Below the pieces are notes generated by a model. The model saw only the letters and a program-made list of their open reading frames with translations, did no database searches and was not told where the DNA came from. The position numbers and the translations under genes were made by a program. Source: Rhodococcus sp. OK302 (GTDB lineage: Bacteria > Actinomycetota > Actinomycetes > Mycobacteriales > Mycobacteriaceae). Taken from it: a DNA stretch of 64,000 nt. The stretch is from contig NZ_NPJZ01000001.1 in the NCBI RefSeq assembly GCF_002245895.1, positions 3,322,501 to 3,386,500 on the forward strand. The letters are read 5' to 3'. The stretch's first letter is position 1. Each line of letters begins with the position of its first letter. Shown one piece after another: positions 54,280 to 64,000 of this stretch.

Positions 54280-57200
54280 GTGGTGGAACCTATCGACGTC
54301 AGGAAGTCCGTAGAAAATAGTTCCGTAGAGCACATATCGAGCGCCGAGTATTTTCCGTTGTCCGCGGCGCAACGAGCGACCTGGTTCGCGCAACAAATTC
54401 AACCCGACGTACCGATTTCGATTGCGCATTACGTCGAGTTGCGCGGAGAACTCGATGTTGACCTGTTGCGACAGGAAACCGTTGCGGTTGCACACGAGTT
54501 TCAGTCACCGTTACTCAAGGTGATCGAGATCGATGGCCGTCCGATGCAGTACGTGGACAACACGATCGATATTCCTGTCGACTTCATCGATTTTCGTGGC
54601 GAGGCCGACCCGGTTGCCGCTGCGCACGATCTGATGAATCGGGACTACCAGAGGCAACTCGATCTCGGAGTCGATCGACTGGTAGAAACCTCGATCCTGT
54701 GTGTGGGGCCTTCGCATTACCTGTGGTACAGCCGCATTCATCACGTCGCGCTCGACGGATACGGTGCCATGACGATGATGAACCGCATCGCGCACCGCTA
54801 TTCTGCCGCGGTCGCCGGCTGTGAACCGGACTTGAATCACGCTGCCGCCCAGCGTGAGCTGTACGAGATCGACTCTCGCTATCGGTCGTCGGATCGGTAT
54901 GTAGCAGATCGGGAGTACTGGGCGACGCGAACTTCAGCGCTCGAAGGCTCGACCCTGTCCGATGTGTCGGCACCCTCACTGGCGAGGAGCAGAGTCGAAA
55001 GTGCCTTGCTCTCCGGCGCGGCGTGTGTCGGGCTCGAGGAATCCGAGCGGCAGGCAGCAACGGTTGTTGCCGCCATCGCCTGCTATCTGGCGCGGATGAC
55101 TTCCAAAACCTCTGTACTGGTGAATGTTCCGTTGTCCGGACGAACAACGTCCGCCCTTCGCAAGTCCGGCGGCATGATGGTCAACGTTGCGCCACTCGCG
55201 ATTTCGGTTGACGAAGGGGATACAGTATCCGAACTCGTGACTTCGGTTCAGCAAGAACTGATGGGTGCGTTGCGGCATCAGCGGTGCAGTTTGGACGATA
55301 TCCGCCGCGATCTCGGTCGCAGCGGGGACGGATTGTCCGGACCCATGGTCAACGTCATGCTGTTCCGGCAGAACATCGCCCTGGGCTCGATGGTGGGCGA
55401 GTACCACATCGTCACGTCCGGTCCGGTCGAAGATCTGCTGATCAACGTGTACCCGAGCGGCACGCGAGCAGAGATCTTTGTCGACTTCCGAGCAAATCCG
55501 AATCGATACACAGACTCCGCGCTCCGGACACACCACACGCAGTTCGTTGAATTGTTGGAAGAGTTCATCGCGTCAGACCCGGGCGCCAAGCTCGACACAA
55601 TTCACCGGGCGACAGCTCTCGAAGGCGAGCGACGACATCGAATAGTTGACCAACTCGAATACTGGAAGAATCAGCTTTCGGGGATTCCGGAGCTTCTGAA
55701 ATTGCCGTCCGATCGGGCTCGGCCGGCCTCGCAATCCCTGCGAGTCGATGGCGCCCGAGTCCAGATCGGCGCTGATACCCACCGCAGAGTGATCGAAGTG
55801 GCCGCCGACCACAGCGCCACTAGTTTTGCGGTTTTGCATGCGGCTTTCGCCGTGCTGCTGAGCAGGCTTTCGGGCACATCCGACGTGGTGGTCGGAACGG
55901 CGGTCTCCGGGCCCGCAGACGTCATTGTGCTGCGGACCCGCGTTGAGATGGAAATGTCCTTCGTGCATCTCCTGTGTCTGGTTCGGGACACCGATGCGGA
56001 GGCCTTCGATCACAGCGAGGTTCCTTTCGAAGAGTTGGTTCGGTCGCTCGAGATGGGTGATTCTCCGGCATATTCCCCGATCGCCCAGGTGATGTTTGAG
56101 GATCGTGATGGGGAAGAAGGTGTGGGGGACAATGGAATCGGCCGGTTCGATCTTCGGGTGACCGCGTCGGAGGTTTTCGATGCAGGAGGCAATCCTGCCG
56201 GCATCACGGTGAATCTCGGGTTCGCGACAGATCTGTTCGACGCGGAGACTGTTCGTGGTCTCGGGACGAGATTTCGCCGCATTCTGGAGGCGATCACGAT
56301 CACCCCCGATATCGGAGTAGGCGACATCGATATCCTCGTCGATGCCGAACGTCGAACTCTCGTTCCGGTTCAGGGCGCAGTGGCCCGCTCGGAACGCACG
56401 CTACCGGAACTGTTCGATGCTGCAGCACAAGCGAATCCTGACGGCGTAGCCCTCTCGTATTGCGGTGTCACGTTGACCTATCGCGAAGTGGACGAGCGCT
56501 CGAACCAGCTCGCGCGAGTCTTGGTCGCACAGGGAATTGGCACGGAAGACTATGTAGCGCTGGGGATTGCACGCTCGATCGAGTCCGTCCTGTCCGTGCT
56601 GGCGATAGCCAAGACTGGCGCGGCATTTGTACCGGTGGATCCGAGTTTTCCCGCAGACCGGATCCAGCACATGTTGGATGATTCCGGTGCGGCCGCCGGA
56701 GTGACTGTGTCTGCTGATCGCTCGCGACTGCCGAATTCGATTCCGTGGCTGGTGCTCGACGACCCAGAGTTTCGGACGGAGTGTTCGACGCAAGCAGCGT
56801 TCGGAGTTACCGACGCTCAACGTATCCGGCCGCTCCACCGGGATAATCCCGCCTACGTGATTTACACGTCCGGTTCTACGGGCAGACCGAAAGGCGTCCC
56901 GGTCACCCATCGAGGCCTGGACAACCTTGCCGCCGAGCATCTTTCACGATTCGGGGCGACGCAAGACTCGCGGATCCTGCATTTTTCCACGCCGAGTTTC
57001 GATGCGTCGGTCTCCGAGTATCTGCACGCCTTCGGTGCCGGAGCGACGATGGTGATCGTTCCGCCCACGATTTACGGTGGGGAGGAGTTGTCCCGGTTTT
57101 TGAGAAATGAGCGGGTCACGCACGGATTCATAACAACTGCTGCGCTCGGAACTGTTGAACCGGAGGGACTTTCAGAATTTCAGGATGTGGTGTTCGGTGG

Positions 57201-60200
57201 CGAGGCGTGCCCGCCGGAGTTGGTGAAGCGGTGGGCGTCGGGTCGGAGGTTGTGTAATGCCTACGGGCCGACTGAGGCAACTGTCATGGCGAACATCAGT
57301 GAACCGATGTCACCGGCGGACGCGATCACCCTGGGCGGACCGCTGCGAGGAATCTGCGAGGTAGTTCTCGACGCACGGTTGAAGGCGGTACCACTTGGAG
57401 TCGCGGGGGAACTGTACGTCGCGGGCGAAGCACTGGCCCGCGGGTATCACGGCAAATCTGCGTTGACGGCGGAACGCTTCGTAGCCAATCCCTTTGGTAG
57501 CCCGGGTGAGCGGATGTACCGAACCGGGGATGTAGTGCGCTGGCGAACCGATCGCACACTCGAGTACGTCGGCCGCAGTGACTTTCAGGTGAAGGTACGC
57601 GGCTTCCGTATCGAATTGGGCGAGATCGATACCGTCCTCCACACTCATCCACACGTGAGGACAGCGTTGACGACGTCGCGACCAGGGCCGTCGGGCGATA
57701 CGATGCTTGTGTCGTACGTCGTGCCGGTGGCCGGGCAAGTGCTGGTAGCTGCCCAGGTGATGGACTATGTCACAGAGCAATTGCCGACGTATATGATTCC
57801 GGCGGCGATCGTCGTACTGGTCGAGATGCCGATGACGGCGGTGGGGAAGCTCGATCGCGCAGCGTTGCCGGCGCCGCAATTTGTCTCGTCGGAGGCGGAG
57901 TTCCGCGCCCCGACAGGCCGCGTCGAACAGACAGTCGCGCAGGTATTGGCCGATGTACTGGGTGTGGCTCGAATTGGCCGGGGCGACAGCTTCTTCGACC
58001 TCGGAGGAAACTCGCTGGCCGCAACCAGGGTAATTGCGCGACTCAATCGGGCTCTCGGCGTTGACCTCGGTGTCCGGACGCTGTTCGAGGCACCGACGGT
58101 GGAGACTCTGGCACAGCAGATCGGGCAAGCTGCACTGTGGCACCTCGATCGGCCAGTTCTGACGGCACGATCGCGTCCCGACATCATCCCGGTTTCGCCG
58201 GCGCAGCAGCGTATCTGGTTCATCAACCAGTTCGACACCTCCTCGTCGGCCTACAACATCCCGATGGTGGTGCGCCTGTCCGGCGATCTCGATGTGGCGG
58301 CGCTCCGCGCTGCACTGGGTGACGTGATCGAACGGCACGAGTCGCTTCGGACTGTCTATCCGGCATCTGCAGACGGCCCTCATCAGATGATCGTTCCGTC
58401 GGCTCCGGTAGTTCCGGATCTGAGACCGCAGGTGTGCAGCGATGTTGAAACGTCGATCACCGAGTTCGCTTCGCGGGGTTTTGATGTGAGCAAGACGGTG
58501 CCGGTCCGGGGCGTTCTGTTCCGGACCGGACCCGACGAGCACGTCCTCCTGCTGGTGGTTCACCACATTTCGGCCGACGGAGCGTCGCTGGCACCACTCG
58601 CTCGCGATCTGGCAATTGCCTACGACGCGCGTGTTCAGGGGCAGTCGCCAGACTGGAATCCACTCCCGGTGCACTATGCCGATTTCAGTCTGTGGCAGAC
58701 GGAAATTCTTGGTAGCGACCAGGATCCCGACAGCATCATGTCGGCGCAGTTGGACTACTGGAAGTCAGCATTGTCGGACCTCCCCGGCCCGATCGACCTT
58801 CCCTTGGATCGGCCGCGGCCCCGGGACCGTTCGTTACAAGGCGGGATCGTCAAGTTCTCGGTATCTCCGGCGTTGCATCGGGACCTTCTCGCGCTTGCAC
58901 GGCAACACAACTCCACAATGTTCATGGTTATGCATGCAGCACTGGTGGTATTGGCAGCGCGTCTGAGTGGGTCCACGGATATCACCATCGGGACGCCGAC
59001 CGGAGGACGCGGGGAGGAGGCGCTCGACGATCTGGTCGGGATGTTTGTCAACACTGTGGTGCTGCGGACGGCCGTCGACCCGGGCACGACCTTTGCGCAG
59101 ACGCTGTCCGAGGTGCGGAAGGTTGACCTGGAGGCATTCGGACACACCGAGGTGCCGTTCGAGAGAGTGGTGGAAGCGCTCGCACCGGATCGTTCGACGT
59201 CACACTCTCCGCTGTTTCAGATCTTGCTGGAGTTCCAGAACACCGTCGCCCCCAATCTGGAATTGCCGGGACTGTCGGTGGAGGTGGTTGACGTTGATGC
59301 CGGAGTGTCCAAGTTTGATCTGCAGTTGACGCTTGCGGAGCGCTACGACGAGTCGGGTTCTGCGGACGGTATCTCCGGAGCATTCACTTTTGCGTCCGAT
59401 GTGTTCGATCGGCTGACAGTGTCGGGATTCGGGGAGCGATTCATTCGGATTATGGAAAGTGTTGTTGCGGAACCGGATAGGGCTGTCGGCGATATCGAGG
59501 TTCTCGGGCCGGGTGAGCGGGAGTTGGTACTCGATTCGTGGAATGCGACGGGGCATGCGTTGCCGGGGGTGACGTTGGCGGATCTTTTTGATGCGCAGGT
59601 GGCGCGGACGCCGGGTGCTGTTGCGGTGGTGTTCGAGGGTACGGCGTTGTCGTATCGGGAGTTTGATGCTCGGGTGAATCGGTTGGCGAGGTTTTTGATT
59701 TCGGTGGGGGTGGGGCCGGAGGTGTCGGTGGGGGTTGCGGTGGGGCGCAGTGTGGAGTTGTTGGTGGCGATTTATGCGGTGGTGAAGGCGGGTGGGGCGT
59801 ATGTGCCGGTAGATGTGGATCAGCCGGTGGAGCGTGTGGGGTTTGCGGTGTCGTCGGCGGGTGCGGTGTTGATTTTGACGGTTTCCGGTGGCGGTGGTGG
59901 GTTGCCGGTGGGGGTTCGGGTTGTCGAGCTTGATGTTGTTGATGTGTCGGGGTTTTCGTCGGTTCGGGTGACGGATGCGGATCGGGTGGCGCGGTTGTTG
60001 CCGGAGCATCCGGCGTATGTGATGTTTACGTCGGGTTCGACGGGTCGTCCGAAGGGGGTGGTGGTGCCGCAGGTGGGGGTGGTGAATCGGTTGTTGTGGA
60101 TGCAGGATCGGTACCCGTTGTCTTCGGATGATGTGGTGTTGCAGAAGACGCCGGTGACGTTTGATGTGTCGGTGTGGGAGTTGTTCTGGCCGTTGATTGT

Positions 60201-61140
60201 TGGTGCTCGGGTGGTGGTTGCGGTTGCGGGTGGGCATCGTGATCCGGTGTATTTGTCTCGGGTGATTGTGGGGCAGGCGGTGACGGTGGTGCATTTTGTG
60301 CCGTCGATGTTGGATGTTTTTGTGGCGGAGTCGGGTGCGGCGGCGTGTGTGGGGTTGCGGCGGGTGTTTGCGTCGGGTGAGTCGTTGTCGGTGGTGTCGG
60401 CGGTGCGGTTGCGTGATGTGTTGCCGGGTGTTGAGTTGCATAATTTGTATGGTCCGACGGAGGCGTCGGTGGATGTGACGTTTCATGAGTTCGGGTCGGG
60501 TGTTGTTGGGGTTGGGTCGGTTCCGATCGGTGTGCCGGTGTGGAATACGCGGGTGTTTGTGTTGGATTCGCGGTTGCGTCCGGTGCCGGTGGGTGTGGTG
60601 GGGGAGTTGTATCTCGGTGGTGTGCAGTTGGCGCGGGGGTATGTGGGTCGGGCTGATTTGACGGCGGATCGGTTTGTGGCGGATCCGTTCGGGGGGTCGG
60701 GTTCTCGTTTGTATCGGTCGGGGGATGTGGTGCGGTGGGTGCGGTTGAGCGGAGCGAGGGGGGATGTTGCTAGCTCGAGCGGAGTGAGGGGGGATGTTGC
60801 TAGCTCTGGTGAGTTGGAGTATGTGGGGCGTAGTGATTTTCAGGTGAAGTTGCGGGGGCAGCGCGTCGAACTGGGTGAGGTGGAGGCGGTGTTGTTGCGT
60901 CAGGTGGGGGTGGCGCAGGCGGTGGTGGTGTTGCGGGGTGGTGTTGGTGGGGAGTATTTGGCGGGGTTTGTGGTGCCGGTGAGTGGGGTGTCGTTGGATG
61001 TGGGGTGGTGTTGGGGGTGTGGCGGCGGAGTTGGTGGGGTTTATGGTGCCGTCGGTGTTGGTGGTGTTGTCGGGGTTGCCGGTGACGGTGAATGGGAAGT
61101 TGGATCGAAAAGGGCTACCGGATACCGGTTTCAGTGCTGA
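54280..61140 (+). CDS. Non-ribosomal peptide synthetase, first part (C-halfC-A-PCP-C-A, frameshifted)
   Basis: 2286 residues before a stop, of a protein that continues in another phase. Full C domain (25-430; HHVALDG near 154), whose AHYVELRGELD opening is EntF-like; then a half C domain (about 455-690) with no HHxxxDG; A1 (700-1200; YTSGSTGRPKG near 862, GFRIELGEID); PCP1 with DLGGNSL near 1240; C2 (1300-1730; HHISADG near 1428); A2 (about 1750-2240; MFTSGSTGRPKG, FDVSVWELF, GQRVELGEVE). A2 residues read DVWHFSLVDK, the Ser code. The frame leaves the coding phase between about 60990 and 61019; the last 30 residues are frameshifted. GTG start (54280 or 54283). Product unknown. Confidence 0.9.
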   Translation: MVEPIDVRKSVENSSVEHISSAEYFPLSAAQRATWFAQQIQPDVPISIAHYVELRGELDVDLLRQETVAVAHEFQSPLLKVIEIDGRPMQYVDNTIDIPVDFIDFRGEADPVAAAHDLMNRDYQRQLDLGVDRLVETSILCVGPSHYLWYSRIHHVALDGYGAMTMMNRIAHRYSAAVAGCEPDLNHAAAQRELYEIDSRYRSSDRYVADREYWATRTSALEGSTLSDVSAPSLARSRVESALLSGAACVGLEESERQAATVVAAIACYLARMTSKTSVLVNVPLSGRTTSALRKSGGMMVNVAPLAISVDEGDTVSELVTSVQQELMGALRHQRCSLDDIRRDLGRSGDGLSGPMVNVMLFRQNIALGSMVGEYHIVTSGPVEDLLINVYPSGTRAEIFVDFRANPNRYTDSALRTHHTQFVELLEEFIASDPGAKLDTIHRATALEGERRHRIVDQLEYWKNQLSGIPELLKLPSDRARPASQSLRVDGARVQIGADTHRRVIEVAADHSATSFAVLHAAFAVLLSRLSGTSDVVVGTAVSGPADVIVLRTRVEMEMSFVHLLCLVRDTDAEAFDHSEVPFEELVRSLEMGDSPAYSPIAQVMFEDRDGEEGVGDNGIGRFDLRVTASEVFDAGGNPAGITVNLGFATDLFDAETVRGLGTRFRRILEAITITPDIGVGDIDILVDAERRTLVPVQGAVARSERTLPELFDAAAQANPDGVALSYCGVTLTYREVDERSNQLARVLVAQGIGTEDYVALGIARSIESVLSVLAIAKTGAAFVPVDPSFPADRIQHMLDDSGAAAGVTVSADRSRLPNSIPWLVLDDPEFRTECSTQAAFGVTDAQRIRPLHRDNPAYVIYTSGSTGRPKGVPVTHRGLDNLAAEHLSRFGATQDSRILHFSTPSFDASVSEYLHAFGAGATMVIVPPTIYGGEELSRFLRNERVTHGFITTAALGTVEPEGLSEFQDVVFGGEACPPELVKRWASGRRLCNAYGPTEATVMANISEPMSPADAITLGGPLRGICEVVLDARLKAVPLGVAGELYVAGEALARGYHGKSALTAERFVANPFGSPGERMYRTGDVVRWRTDRTLEYVGRSDFQVKVRGFRIELGEIDTVLHTHPHVRTALTTSRPGPSGDTMLVSYVVPVAGQVLVAAQVMDYVTEQLPTYMIPAAIVVLVEMPMTAVGKLDRAALPAPQFVSSEAEFRAPTGRVEQTVAQVLADVLGVARIGRGDSFFDLGGNSLAATRVIARLNRALGVDLGVRTLFEAPTVETLAQQIGQAALWHLDRPVLTARSRPDIIPVSPAQQRIWFINQFDTSSSAYNIPMVVRLSGDLDVAALRAALGDVIERHESLRTVYPASADGPHQMIVPSAPVVPDLRPQVCSDVETSITEFASRGFDVSKTVPVRGVLFRTGPDEHVLLLVVHHISADGASLAPLARDLAIAYDARVQGQSPDWNPLPVHYADFSLWQTEILGSDQDPDSIMSAQLDYWKSALSDLPGPIDLPLDRPRPRDRSLQGGIVKFSVSPALHRDLLALARQHNSTMFMVMHAALVVLAARLSGSTDITIGTPTGGRGEEALDDLVGMFVNTVVLRTAVDPGTTFAQTLSEVRKVDLEAFGHTEVPFERVVEALAPDRSTSHSPLFQILLEFQNTVAPNLELPGLSVEVVDVDAGVSKFDLQLTLAERYDESGSADGISGAFTFASDVFDRLTVSGFGERFIRIMESVVAEPDRAVGDIEVLGPGERELVLDSWNATGHALPGVTLADLFDAQVARTPGAVAVVFEGTALSYREFDARVNRLARFLISVGVGPEVSVGVAVGRSVELLVAIYAVVKAGGAYVPVDVDQPVERVGFAVSSAGAVLILTVSGGGGGLPVGVRVVELDVVDVSGFSSVRVTDADRVARLLPEHPAYVMFTSGSTGRPKGVVVPQVGVVNRLLWMQDRYPLSSDDVVLQKTPVTFDVSVWELFWPLIVGARVVVAVAGGHRDPVYLSRVIVGQAVTVVHFVPSMLDVFVAESGAAACVGLRRVFASGESLSVVSAVRLRDVLPGVELHNLYGPTEASVDVTFHEFGSGVVGVGSVPIGVPVWNTRVFVLDSRLRPVPVGVVGELYLGGVQLARGYVGRADLTADRFVADPFGGSGSRLYRSGDVVRWVRLSGARGDVASSSGVRGDVASSGELEYVGRSDFQVKLRGQRVELGEVEAVLLRQVGVAQAVVVLRGGVGGEYLAGFVVPVSGVSLDVGWCWGCGGGVGGVYGAVGVGGVVGVAGDGEWEVGSKRATGYRFQC
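60748..60807 (+). repeat. 30-bp in-frame tandem duplication in A2
   Basis: Two 30-bp units (60748-60777, 60778-60807) differ at two bases and encode SGARGDVASS and SGVRGDVASS between DVVRWVRL and GELEYVGRSD. It lies in the loop after core motif A7, where A domains usually have only a short spacer. The insertion is in frame. Confidence 0.85.
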
Positions 61141-64000
61141 TGCAGTCGAATTTGCAGCTCCTCGCAACCCGATCGAACAGATAGTGGCCTCCGTTGTGGC
61201 CGACCTACTCGGAATCGTCAGAGCGGGAGTAGACGACAACTTCTTCGCTCTTGGTGGGAACTCCCTGATTGCCACTCGGCTGGTGGCGCGGATCAATGCT
61301 GTAGTCGGCGACCGGATCAGCGTTCGTGATGTCTTCGATGCCCCCACCGTCGCAGGTCTGGCGGTGCTGGCGCAATCGGAGGACGGATTGGAATCCCGCC
61401 CGCCCTTGAAGCCGCGGGAAGGTTCAACAAAAGTCCCCGTGTCGCTGGCTCAGCAGCGTCTGTGGTTTGTCAATCAGTTCGACACGTCGTCGTCGGCCTA
61501 CAACGTCGCGTTTGTGTTGAGCCTCGAAGGGCGGCTTGACGTGAGCGCGCTTCGCCAGGCATTCGCGGACGTCATCGCGCGACATGAGACGCTGCGCACC
61601 ATTTTCCCGCTTGCTGATGACGGGCCGCAGCAGGTGATCTTGCCGACGACAAGCGCATTACTCGGCCTTGATCCGATCGTCGTGTCGGGTGACGCCGAAC
61701 TTCGCGAACTGTGTCATCGGGTGTTGTCGACAGGATTTGACGTGACGGCGCAGATCCCGTTGCGTGCGAGCCTGTTCCGGCTCGCGGAGGATGCGCACAC
61801 GCTGGCAGTGGTCGTGCATCACATCGCGTCCGACGGTTTCTCGATGGCACCTTTGGCGCGAGATGTCATGACCGCGTATTCGTCTCGCCTGAACGGTTCA
61901 GAACCGGATTGGACGCCGCTCGATGTGCAGTACGCCGACTACACGCTGTGGCAGCGCGAGTGGCTGGGTTCGGAATCCGATGAGGAGTCGTTGATTTCGC
62001 GACAGTTGGCCTACTGGACTGCCGCACTGTCAGACCTGCCAGAAGTATTGGAGATACCCACTGACCGCCCCCGCCCGGCTGTCCGATCTCTCCAAGCGGA
62101 CCATTTCGAATTTGGCATCGGTGAAGAGGTTCACGCCGGTGTGGTGGCGCTGGCACGCAATCACAACGCAACGGTCTTCATGACTATGCATGCAGTACTG
62201 GCGATTCTGCTGGCACGACTGAGCGGTGGCGACGACATCACGGTCGGGACGCCGATCGCCGGACGTGGTGAGAGGGAACTAGACGACATTGTGGGCATGT
62301 TCGTCAACACACTTGTCTTGCGCACACGCATCAACGGAGATGCCACATTCTCCGATGTACTCGGGATGGTCAGGGAAGGCGATCTGGGTGCATTCACCCA
62401 TGCGGAAGTCCCGTTCGAACGGGTCGTAGAGGTTTTGAATCCGTCCCGGTCCACCGCATACTCGCCGCTCTTCCAAGTGATGCTGGAGTTCCAGGACATC
62501 GAGCGCCCCACACTGGAACTCCCGGGCCTGCAGATTCGGAGTCTTGATGCTCCGATCGACACCACCAACTTCGATCTCCAGTTGACAGTGTCCGAGAACG
62601 TCGACGCCGACGGGATTCCAGCTGGAATTACGGCGGAATTCGGTTATGCAACTGATCTTTTCGATGAGGAAACAGTTGCCGGGTTCGCGAGGCGATTCCA
62701 GTGCATCCTCGAGACGGTAACCGAGAGCGCTGACGTCAGAGTCGGCGACATCGATATCCTGGGGATCTCCGAGCGCGCTGAACTCGCTCCGGCACCGGGC
62801 GGTGAGGCACTAACACCGAGGACGTTGCCGGAACTGTTGGCAGAGGCAACCGCACACGATCCGGATGCCGTGGCGCTAGCCTTCGAGGGACGGGAGGTTT
62901 GCTACGGCGAACTCGACGAGCGTTCGAATCAGTTGGCCCGTATGTTGATCGAGCGTGGCGCCGGCCCCGAGACGGTGGTAGCGGTGTGTATACCGCGTTC
63001 TGTCGACGCCATCCTTGCAGTCTGGGCAGTGGCCAAATCCGGGGCGGCGTTTCTTCCGGTAGATCCGAATCATCCGGCTGGGCGGATCGAATACATGCTC
63101 ACGGACTCCGGAGCAGTCTGGGGCGTGACGACGTCGGCGCAACGGGCGGCACTTCCCGACACTGCGGCATGGATCGTGCTGGGCGGAATGGACTGTGAAG
63201 ACCAGCTTGCGAGGTATTCGTCGGCGGCGCTCAGCGATGACGAGCGGACGTCACCGATCCTGATCGACAACCCTGCCTACCTGATCTACACGTCCGGATC
63301 GACGGGAACGCCCAAAGGCGTGGTCACCACGCACCGCGGTCTGTCCAATTTTGCGGCCCAAGAGTGGGAGACGTTTGCGACTTCGGTCCGCTCCAGAACA
63401 CTGCATTTTGCGTCGCCGAGCTTCGATGCGTCAGTTCTCGAGTTGCTGCTGGCGATCGGTGCGGGCGCCACGATGGTGATCGCTCCGCCAACGGTCCTCG
63501 GCGGTGCCGAGTTGGCGGATCTGTTGGAATCACAGCAGGTCACCCACTGCTTTGTTACTCCGGCGGCGCTCGCGTCGGTTGATCCCGCTGGTCTCACTGC
63601 CCTCGAATGTGTTGTGACCGGCGGCGAGGCCTGTCCTCCCGAGTTGGTCGCCCAATGGGCACGAGGTCGGCGAATGTTCAACGCGTACGGGCCAACCGAA
63701 GCGACGGTCGTCTCCAGTATCAGTGGCCAACTGGTGGCGGAGGCGCCGGTGACCATTGGTGCGCCGACTCGGGGGTTCACAGAGGCAGTACTGGATTCTC
63801 GGTTGCAACCCGTGCCGGCGGGTGTCACCGGTGAGTTGTATCTCGCCGGTCCGGCTCTCGCTCGTGGTTATCATCAGCGGTTCCCGCTGACCGCCGAACA
63901 CTTTGTCGCCAATCCGTTCGGCCCGGCAGGAAGTCGGATGTATCGAACCGGCGATCGGGTGCGGTGGACGGCCGATCAACAGTTGGAATATCTCGGACGT
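61019..64000 (+). CDS. Non-ribosomal peptide synthetase, continuation (A2 end-PCP-C-A, 3' end outside)
   Basis: An open frame of 994 codons with no stop, one base out of phase with the upstream frame. It opens VAAELVGFMVPSVLVVLSG, then VNGKLDRKGLP (A10), PCP2 (FFALGGNSLIATRLVARI), C3 (HHIASDG, NHNATVFMTMHAVLA), and A3 up to its core motifs (YLIYTSGSTGTPKG, FDASVLELLL, NAYGPTEATVV, YRTGDRVRW). A3 residues at the specificity positions read about DALFVGAVVK with unclear substrate. It needs no start of its own; it is the remainder of the same NRPS. Confidence 0.88.
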   Translation, partial: MAAELVGFMVPSVLVVLSGLPVTVNGKLDRKGLPDTGFSADAVEFAAPRNPIEQIVASVVADLLGIVRAGVDDNFFALGGNSLIATRLVARINAVVGDRISVRDVFDAPTVAGLAVLAQSEDGLESRPPLKPREGSTKVPVSLAQQRLWFVNQFDTSSSAYNVAFVLSLEGRLDVSALRQAFADVIARHETLRTIFPLADDGPQQVILPTTSALLGLDPIVVSGDAELRELCHRVLSTGFDVTAQIPLRASLFRLAEDAHTLAVVVHHIASDGFSMAPLARDVMTAYSSRLNGSEPDWTPLDVQYADYTLWQREWLGSESDEESLISRQLAYWTAALSDLPEVLEIPTDRPRPAVRSLQADHFEFGIGEEVHAGVVALARNHNATVFMTMHAVLAILLARLSGGDDITVGTPIAGRGERELDDIVGMFVNTLVLRTRINGDATFSDVLGMVREGDLGAFTHAEVPFERVVEVLNPSRSTAYSPLFQVMLEFQDIERPTLELPGLQIRSLDAPIDTTNFDLQLTVSENVDADGIPAGITAEFGYATDLFDEETVAGFARRFQCILETVTESADVRVGDIDILGISERAELAPAPGGEALTPRTLPELLAEATAHDPDAVALAFEGREVCYGELDERSNQLARMLIERGAGPETVVAVCIPRSVDAILAVWAVAKSGAAFLPVDPNHPAGRIEYMLTDSGAVWGVTTSAQRAALPDTAAWIVLGGMDCEDQLARYSSAALSDDERTSPILIDNPAYLIYTSGSTGTPKGVVTTHRGLSNFAAQEWETFATSVRSRTLHFASPSFDASVLELLLAIGAGATMVIAPPTVLGGAELADLLESQQVTHCFVTPAALASVDPAGLTALECVVTGGEACPPELVAQWARGRRMFNAYGPTEATVVSSISGQLVAEAPVTIGAPTRGFTEAVLDSRLQPVPAGVTGELYLAGPALARGYHQRFPLTAEHFVANPFGPAGSRMYRTGDRVRWTADQQLEYLGR

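Follow-up and report, generated by a model that had tools for sequence, protein, structure and literature searches.

The adenylation (A) domains of modules 2 and 5 in a stand-alone NRPS of Rhodococcus sp. OK302 probably form a pair of GRINS, made by intragenic gene conversion with keto-favouring transmission. GRINS are genetic repeats of intense nucleotide skews, as defined in the accessible portions of two published accounts (PMC10394414, PMC9899208). The component of this reading that we infer is the bias in transmission, by which conversion would enrich the coding strand in G and T at the expense of A and C. The two serine A domains would exchange sequence along tracts that start in the C-A linker and reach the NGKLDR motif, transmission would be non-neutral, and repeated cycles would fill third positions with G and T while pushing residues towards Val and Gly.

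Base composition of A2 and its twin

In the window, which is the whole stretch of 64,000 nucleotides analysed, maximum-likelihood segmentation delimits one keto-rich segment of 1605 bp over the A domain of module 2 (A2; Table 1). It scores 200 nats, against 14.7 and 6.8 nats for the best keto-rich and best amino-rich segments elsewhere in the window, with 59000-61500 excluded from that comparison. Its coding strand consists of A 0.088, C 0.140, G 0.481 and T 0.290, amounting to 77% G+T, and the flanks show near-zero skew. The segment begins 24 bp before the C2 match stops and extends into the NGKLDR motif, where it ends. An unusual composition over 59510-61100 had been reported in the first-pass annotation, and the coordinates agree within about 11 bp. 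Its description of the strand as almost free of C stands in that C is rare (14% overall, 3% at third positions); C is nevertheless not absent, and A is equally depleted.

The preference for codons ending in G or T, also described there, is confirmed by the third positions of A2 (A/C/G/T 0.00/0.03/0.68/0.29), which correspond to NNK codons. The same frequencies are 0.15/0.28/0.38/0.19 in A1, 0.12/0.30/0.38/0.19 in A3, 0.10/0.30/0.42/0.19 in C2 and 0.14/0.34/0.35/0.17 in C3. Total G+C remains almost constant, at 0.60-0.64 in windows from 58.75 to 61.75 kb. Within the segment, C is replaced by G and A by T. Since A has been lost to the same degree as C, the bias favours keto bases (G, T) at the cost of amino bases (A, C). 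A scan of G+C at third positions, proposed earlier as a check, is nearly blind to this bias since G+C hardly shifts: A2 gives 0.71, within the 0.66-0.72 found across A1, A3, C2 and C3.

The minus strand across A2 is indeed open for more than 700 codons, as noted previously (Table 1). A2 contains no TTA, CTA or TCA codon over 59530-60990, and the codon-aligned minus frame is hence open there. All 500 of 500 codon shuffles of A2 preserve this open antisense frame, so codon order is irrelevant. An antisense gene is therefore not needed, and the ORF is a by-product of codon bias.

Table 1. Coordinates of the features discussed, as positions in the window
Feature	Position	Strand	Remark
Repeat block	59510..61136	+	1622/1629 columns identical to twin at G000:C1:3389871-3391499
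Keto-skewed segment	59499..61103	+	GC skew +0.55, TA skew +0.53
A2 adenylation core	59587..60642	+	AMP-binding match; presumed serine code DVWHFSLVD
Pocket-region island, approximate place	60223..60423	+	offset 700-900 bp past C2 end
C2, upstream C domain	58180..59523	+	neither converted nor skewed
C3, downstream C domain	61427..62785	+	no skew
A1 domain (comparison)	56413..57450	+	no skew
A3 domain (comparison)	62843..63874	+	no skew
Antisense ORF, 715 aa	59200..61347	-	by-product of codon bias

A whole-genome DNA search places a second copy of the block 7.86 kb downstream, outside the window, in a later ORF of the same synthetase, such that modules 2 and 5 carry the two copies (A2 and A5). 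The copies align over 1629 columns, of which 1622 (99%) are identical; the remainder comprises two substitutions, two gaps of one base each and a difference of 3 bases at the end. Among the matches listed, none extends the block on either side, and the next best in the genome is 72% identical. Both domains read DVWHFSLVD, which we take to be a serine code.

Two local features of the copies deserve mention. A2 is one G shorter than its twin in two G-runs (window positions about 61001 and 61013), which breaks the frame: ORF 54280-61140 stops at the G-run site, and the remaining synthetase is encoded in a different frame that opens at 60983. These length differences may be sequencing errors or real. 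In addition, two tandem 30-bp units (60747-60806) lie in frame within the skewed block and are present in both twins. Sites related to this unit (at most 2 mismatches) number 10 in the genome, including four in the twins, and a reversed control pattern yields 0.

Concerted evolution and the unconverted pocket island

The gene was followed through 28 genomes of the genus, with named Rhodococcus records searched using the C2 domain. Twenty stretches from 20 genomes were fetched (G007, G014, G018, G019, G020, G023 and G025 fall outside this set), giving 21 with the window's own. Fifteen of the 21 hold C2-A-C3-A3-E-C5-A-C6 in order and were used for counts; G001, G002, G005, G015, G016 and G021 were left out as rearranged, cut at contig ends or a different gene. 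The code DVWHFSLVD stands at both A positions in 13/15 genomes, with that of G010 A2 read from a partial hit. The exceptions are A5 of G024 (DVWHVSLVD) and A5 of G027 (DVWTVDLVD, where the alignment looks frameshift-noisy).

Trees of the A block outside the pocket island (see below) join a genome's own two copies as sisters in 12/15 genomes, the exceptions being G003, G017 and G024. PCPs and upstream C domains, in contrast, form same-genome sisters in 0/15 and split by position in 15/15 and 15/15. This is gene conversion that has recurred between the two serine modules and is restricted to their A domains. Genomes with higher A2/A5 identity (0.75-1.00 in the 15) also have stronger mean skew (0.25-0.66; rho 0.71, p 0.003, relatedness uncorrected). 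Of the 9 genomes whose copies are incompletely identical, 7 show a correlation between local identity and skew along the block (p < 0.03); the other two are G003 (rho 0.39, p 0.16) and G024 (rho -0.36, p 0.19).

Some of the stretches left out show other arrangements. The order is C2-A-C6 in G002 (L135) and G005 (L133); a close C3-A3 match is absent from G002 and lies about 15 kb upstream in G005. The synthetase of G001 (L136) has no A1-C2-A2. The remaining A domain is still skewed in all three.

Six genomes (G004, G006, G009, G011, G026 and G027) retain an island 700-900 bp past the C2 end, over the binding pocket, where the two copies are 58-79% identical between flanks at 87-100%. Flank identity averages 0.982 for the two copies of one genome and 0.853 for copies of different genomes, at the same or the other position. 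The island averages 0.652 within a genome, 0.803 at the same position and 0.642 at the other position, and the PCP of the same genomes 0.592, 0.867 and 0.590, respectively. The island hence retains position-specific ancestry amid overwritten surroundings.

Skew per 100-bp window is 0.02-0.20 in A2 islands and 0.01-0.39 in A5 islands (3/12 A5 windows lie at 0.27-0.39), against 0.15-0.62 in the flanks. Fourfold sites, with five island genomes pooled with G008 and G027 absent, read A 0.06, C 0.26, G 0.60 and T 0.09 in the island, A 0.00, C 0.06, G 0.82 and T 0.11 in the rest of the A block, and A 0.07, C 0.39, G 0.49 and T 0.05 in the C domains of the set. In composition, the island comes far nearer to ordinary DNA than the rest of the block does, yet it is not wholly ordinary or neutral.

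An A2-type island occupies both positions in six other genomes (G000, which is the present one, G008, G010, G012, G013 and G022), and for this reason A2 is the donor and A5 the recipient there, perhaps in three or four independent events. In the present genome, the island place is converted and skewed. In G008, the A2-type island overwrote that of A5 and is 100% identical but still unskewed, suggesting that skew trails conversion with a lag. G024 remains skewed at 0.80 identity. Both cases are explicable by lag and persistence, although they show that identity is not the same thing as skew.

On these comparisons, skew follows the conversion tract rather than the gene or the domain, as one gene, transcript, frame and domain carries both states. 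The island comparison is the new element here, in that an unconverted stretch of ~200 bp separates skew from gene and domain. The gene pair serves as a natural experiment that argues against gene-, transcript- or codon-use-level explanations and points to the recombination step.

Direction of the bias and rival explanations

In G012, G013 and G022, fourfold sites of the A block read A 0.00, C 0.01, G 0.81 and T 0.18, against A 0.15, C 0.32, G 0.37 and T 0.15 in the C domains of these genomes. Outside the island zone, all 132 Leu codons of these genomes start with T. Val and Gly make up 40% of A-block residues, versus 17-20% in the C, A1 and A3 domains of the same genomes. The force acts down to the protein sequence, unlike codon selection, and turns C into G, unlike deamination.

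Changes were divided by whether they appear in one copy or both, counting keto to amino (K>M) and amino to keto (M>K) separately. One-copy changes comprise 24 K>M and 6 M>K, an M>K share of 0.20 versus 0.25 expected (p 0.67). The 24:6 ratio departs from the 1:1 of a mutation-only balance (p 0.0014; thinned 19:6, p 0.015). G>C accounts for 14 of the 24 K>M changes, an odd spectrum. Both-copy changes comprise 36 K>M and 21 M>K, a share (21/57) slightly richer in keto-directed changes than unbiased mutation would give (p 0.046). The direct contrast between the classes (6/30 vs 21/57 M>K), with G027 dropped as focal genome, is not significant (Fisher p 0.14). A looser version of the test, on overlapping data, yields 6:27 vs 32:39 (p 0.009) and, for a trio, 8:25 vs 35:25 (p 0.002). 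Control C domains show 237 and 215 changes, equal per site. At present, no keto-directed mutator seems to act on the block, and the transmission test as a whole is suggestive only.

Residual differences between copies, in windows of at least 90% identity, total 189 (G-T 42, K/M transitions 84, K/M transversions 57, A-C 6). Between-genome differences in C domains total 2982 (G-T 234, K/M transitions 1462, K/M transversions 945, A-C 341). G-T differences look about twofold enriched between copies once composition is allowed for by hand, but the control is between species and the figure carries little weight here.

These data bear on the closest rival, conversion-coupled mutagenesis, in which a strand-specific mutator would act on single-stranded DNA during recombination and conversion would only spread its G/T-directed changes. 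Such a process would likewise bind skew to conversion tracts and reach amino acids. The one-copy counts, however, match unbiased mutation, with the caveat of the G>C excess, which makes this account rather unlikely. A pure deaminase predicts C to T, yet fourfold T moves from 0.15 to 0.18 while G doubles; deaminase-type mutation is disfavoured because fourfold C is lost to G and T is barely up. Selection for a coding strand rich in G and T, acting through codon use, the transcript or R-loops, would fit a bias that is strongest at third positions. It is nonetheless very improbable, given that the bias begins and ends within one gene and even, at the island, within one domain, that it doubles Val and Gly, and that the PCP-C-A neighbours of the same transcript are unaffected.

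The first-pass annotation had instead proposed that A2 was swapped in from another NRPS, changing the peptide. Part of that picture is borne out: the recombination history of A2 differs from that of its flanks, the breakpoints are sharp and coincide with the domain edges, and in the suggested phylogeny the A copies pair by genome in 12/15 and the C and PCP domains by position in 15/15. The suggested DNA search also recovered a near-identical A domain, but in the same gene; the partner is the second serine module, and the next best of the matches listed in the genome reaches 72%. A donor in a different synthetase, which a domain swap calls for, is thus missing among those matches. Rather than a single swap into A2, the copies have been homogenised in many Rhodococcus lineages, with A2 as the donor where this can be read. 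Import of a keto-rich A2 from another NRPS or genome is scarcely credible, as the same module pair occurs in 15 genomes, with same-genome sisters in 12 and the serine code kept; the same-gene twin and the concerted evolution in the genus trees led us to reject it. A changed specificity is not predicted by the code, which is the same in both copies. An assembly artefact, with one copy collapsed onto or copied into the other, deserves equally little credence. The two 1-base G-run differences in A2 do look like consensus errors, and the contigs of G021 end in the repeat. Yet the twins also differ by the two substitutions and the 3-base end difference, and the pair recurs in 15 separate assemblies, 11 of which have A-block copies less than 100% identical.

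A possible mismatch-repair model and comparison with known systems

For the origin of the bias within the GRINS reading, we consider a tentative and rather doubtful possibility: GRINS may arise from a blind spot of actinobacterial mismatch repair, in that NucS sees only keto-keto mismatches. According to the accessible parts of the relevant papers, NucS repairs G-G, G-T and T-T mismatches in Mycobacterium smegmatis (PMC11551767) and restrains recombination of non-identical sequences, tenfold at 90% identity (PMC8228993). Matches to NucS_C occur in 27/28 genus genomes, including all 15 used, the one miss being G019 (75% complete). MutS_V occurs in 1/28, G012, one of the 15; its two matches, the sole ones in the 28 genomes, lie on a small contig (G012:C6:108503-110427).

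In a heteroduplex of fixed polarity, a keto/amino difference would produce a keto-keto mismatch in one direction and an amino-amino mismatch in the other. Detecting keto-keto mismatches only, NucS would filter one direction of transfer, and G/T or A/C differences would yield mismatches beyond its range either way. Keto-rich copies would become super-donors whose recombination NucS could not stop. GC and TA skew would climb together with G+C unchanged, towards an endpoint of NNK codons. The model predicts a bias of keto over amino that treats G and T alike, in keeping with the preserved G+C.

The sign of the bias would depend on heteroduplex polarity and on what follows recognition of a mismatch, either rejection of the transfer or an advantage to the donor. 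The coding strand is the leading strand in 11/11 genomes with a placed dnaA, the gene pointing from dnaA to the assumed terminus, as worked out by hand. The terminus was assumed to lie opposite dnaA or at the ends of a linear chromosome; in G001, G012 and G017 the gene is no more than about 0.5 Mb away from it, and in G001, G005 and G015 of this set the gene is rearranged or a different one. Replication and transcription are not separable as sources of polarity.

The origin of GRINS is reportedly stated as unknown in the abstract of the 2021 GRINS paper. A literature search, with coverage excluding most subscription papers, revealed no link between NucS and GRINS, and the connection to the G-G, G-T and T-T recognition described in the available NucS/EndoMS text (PMC11551767, PMC8228993) is drawn here. 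GRINS are also reported in cyanobacteria and Firmicutes (PMC10394414), so NucS cannot be the whole story. If the NucS idea is true, GRINS would be drive-like elements of biased conversion, with skew as a clock of conversion history. Skew would then mark naturally exchanged assembly-line modules, useful for engineering.

The pair resembles GRINS, as far as the literature could be consulted, in a length of at least about 1 kb, high identity to another region of one assembly line, a coding strand with strong GC and TA skew, and a sign of gene conversion. Its 1629 aligned columns exceed the expected 500 bp at more than 80% identity, and its skews exceed the cut-offs of 0.15 for both GC and TA (azalomycin paper) or 25% (2023 catalogue), in the text seen. 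The conversion sign is found in the sister pairs of the genus trees. GRINS of the accessible literature reside in assembly-line PKSs and PKS-NRPS hybrids, in AT and KS regions; the fetched gene, in contrast, contains C, A, carrier and E-like domains. The unconverted islands, which part skew from gene and domain, likewise differ from the published cases.

Other gene families are reportedly allowed for in the 2021 paper, and PKS or hybrid location was for that reason treated as setting, not as defining. By the criteria readable from sequence, the pair qualifies as GRINS in a stand-alone NRPS A domain. In the accessible text of Medema et al. 2014 (PMC4256081), A domains are more alike within a cluster than they are to their positional counterparts, as here; base skew is absent from that text, and the unit here is one A-domain pair in one gene. 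The accessible account of the wollamide cluster (PMC9205934) describes recombination inside A domains, as here, and duplicated genes that share skew patterns. There the pocket was replaced and specificity changed, whereas here it is spared or converted with the same code.

Among named genome loci, 4/52 contain a repeat (at least 300 bp, 88%), and all four are keto-skewed; three are this Rhodococcus synthetase and one is from Streptomyces. As an outside contrast, a small, hand-picked set of 12 plasmid NRPS loci was fetched by number of places and taxon, from 60 listed of 117 matching records. Intragenic repeats occur in 7/7 proteobacterial loci, six with pairs above 98% identity and Eleftheria with at most 87.8%. 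Among the matches listed, their skews reach at most about 0.22 (GC) and 0.20 (TA), none above 0.25, although L149, L152 and L154 contain a few short repeats above the loose cut-off of 0.15. L148 (Methylocystis bryophila) and L153 (Bradyrhizobium japonicum) have many long repeats, the longest among the matches listed being 8 kb and 6 kb, which are 99-100% identical and hardly skewed. Proteobacteria carry MutS; their repeats may also be young duplications. Of the five actinobacterial plasmid loci, the one of Streptomyces NBC_01431, with a repeat of 89%, has strong skew (0.47 over 900 bp). Those of S. cadmiisoli (repeats of about 92% and a single short pair of 95%) and Nocardia farcinica (84%) lack it, and two have no repeat among the matches listed.

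Skewed A domains are not limited to this gene, which speaks against reading the composition of A2 as one foreign signature, as originally proposed. In the NRPSs of this genome, both skews exceed 0.15 in 16/49 A domains versus 2/57 C domains. The A domains were kept by hand among condensation domains, from 132 AMP-binding matches with two pairs of pieces merged, and the C domains from 65 condensation matches after removal of short or weak fragments. Mean skew is 0.37-0.54 in the 8 domains that make up four near-identical A pairs, and one of the remaining 41 A domains has a skew above 0.3. Best identity to another domain correlates with skew in A domains (rho 0.58, n=49) and not in C domains (rho 0.04, n=57). 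Besides A2/A5, other NRPS genes at G000:C1:2611000-2709000 (L011-L016) contain three skewed A pairs of near-identical sequence (identity 1.000, 0.998 and 0.982), together with several A domains of moderate skew. A minus-strand NRPS at G000:C1:4047000-4064000 (L029, L018), among whose domains near-identical copies are absent, displays a coding-strand skew of opposite sign in both C and A domains. This skew rises towards the 3' end and is illustrated by the A domain at 4051521-4052549 (GC -0.28, TA -0.18).
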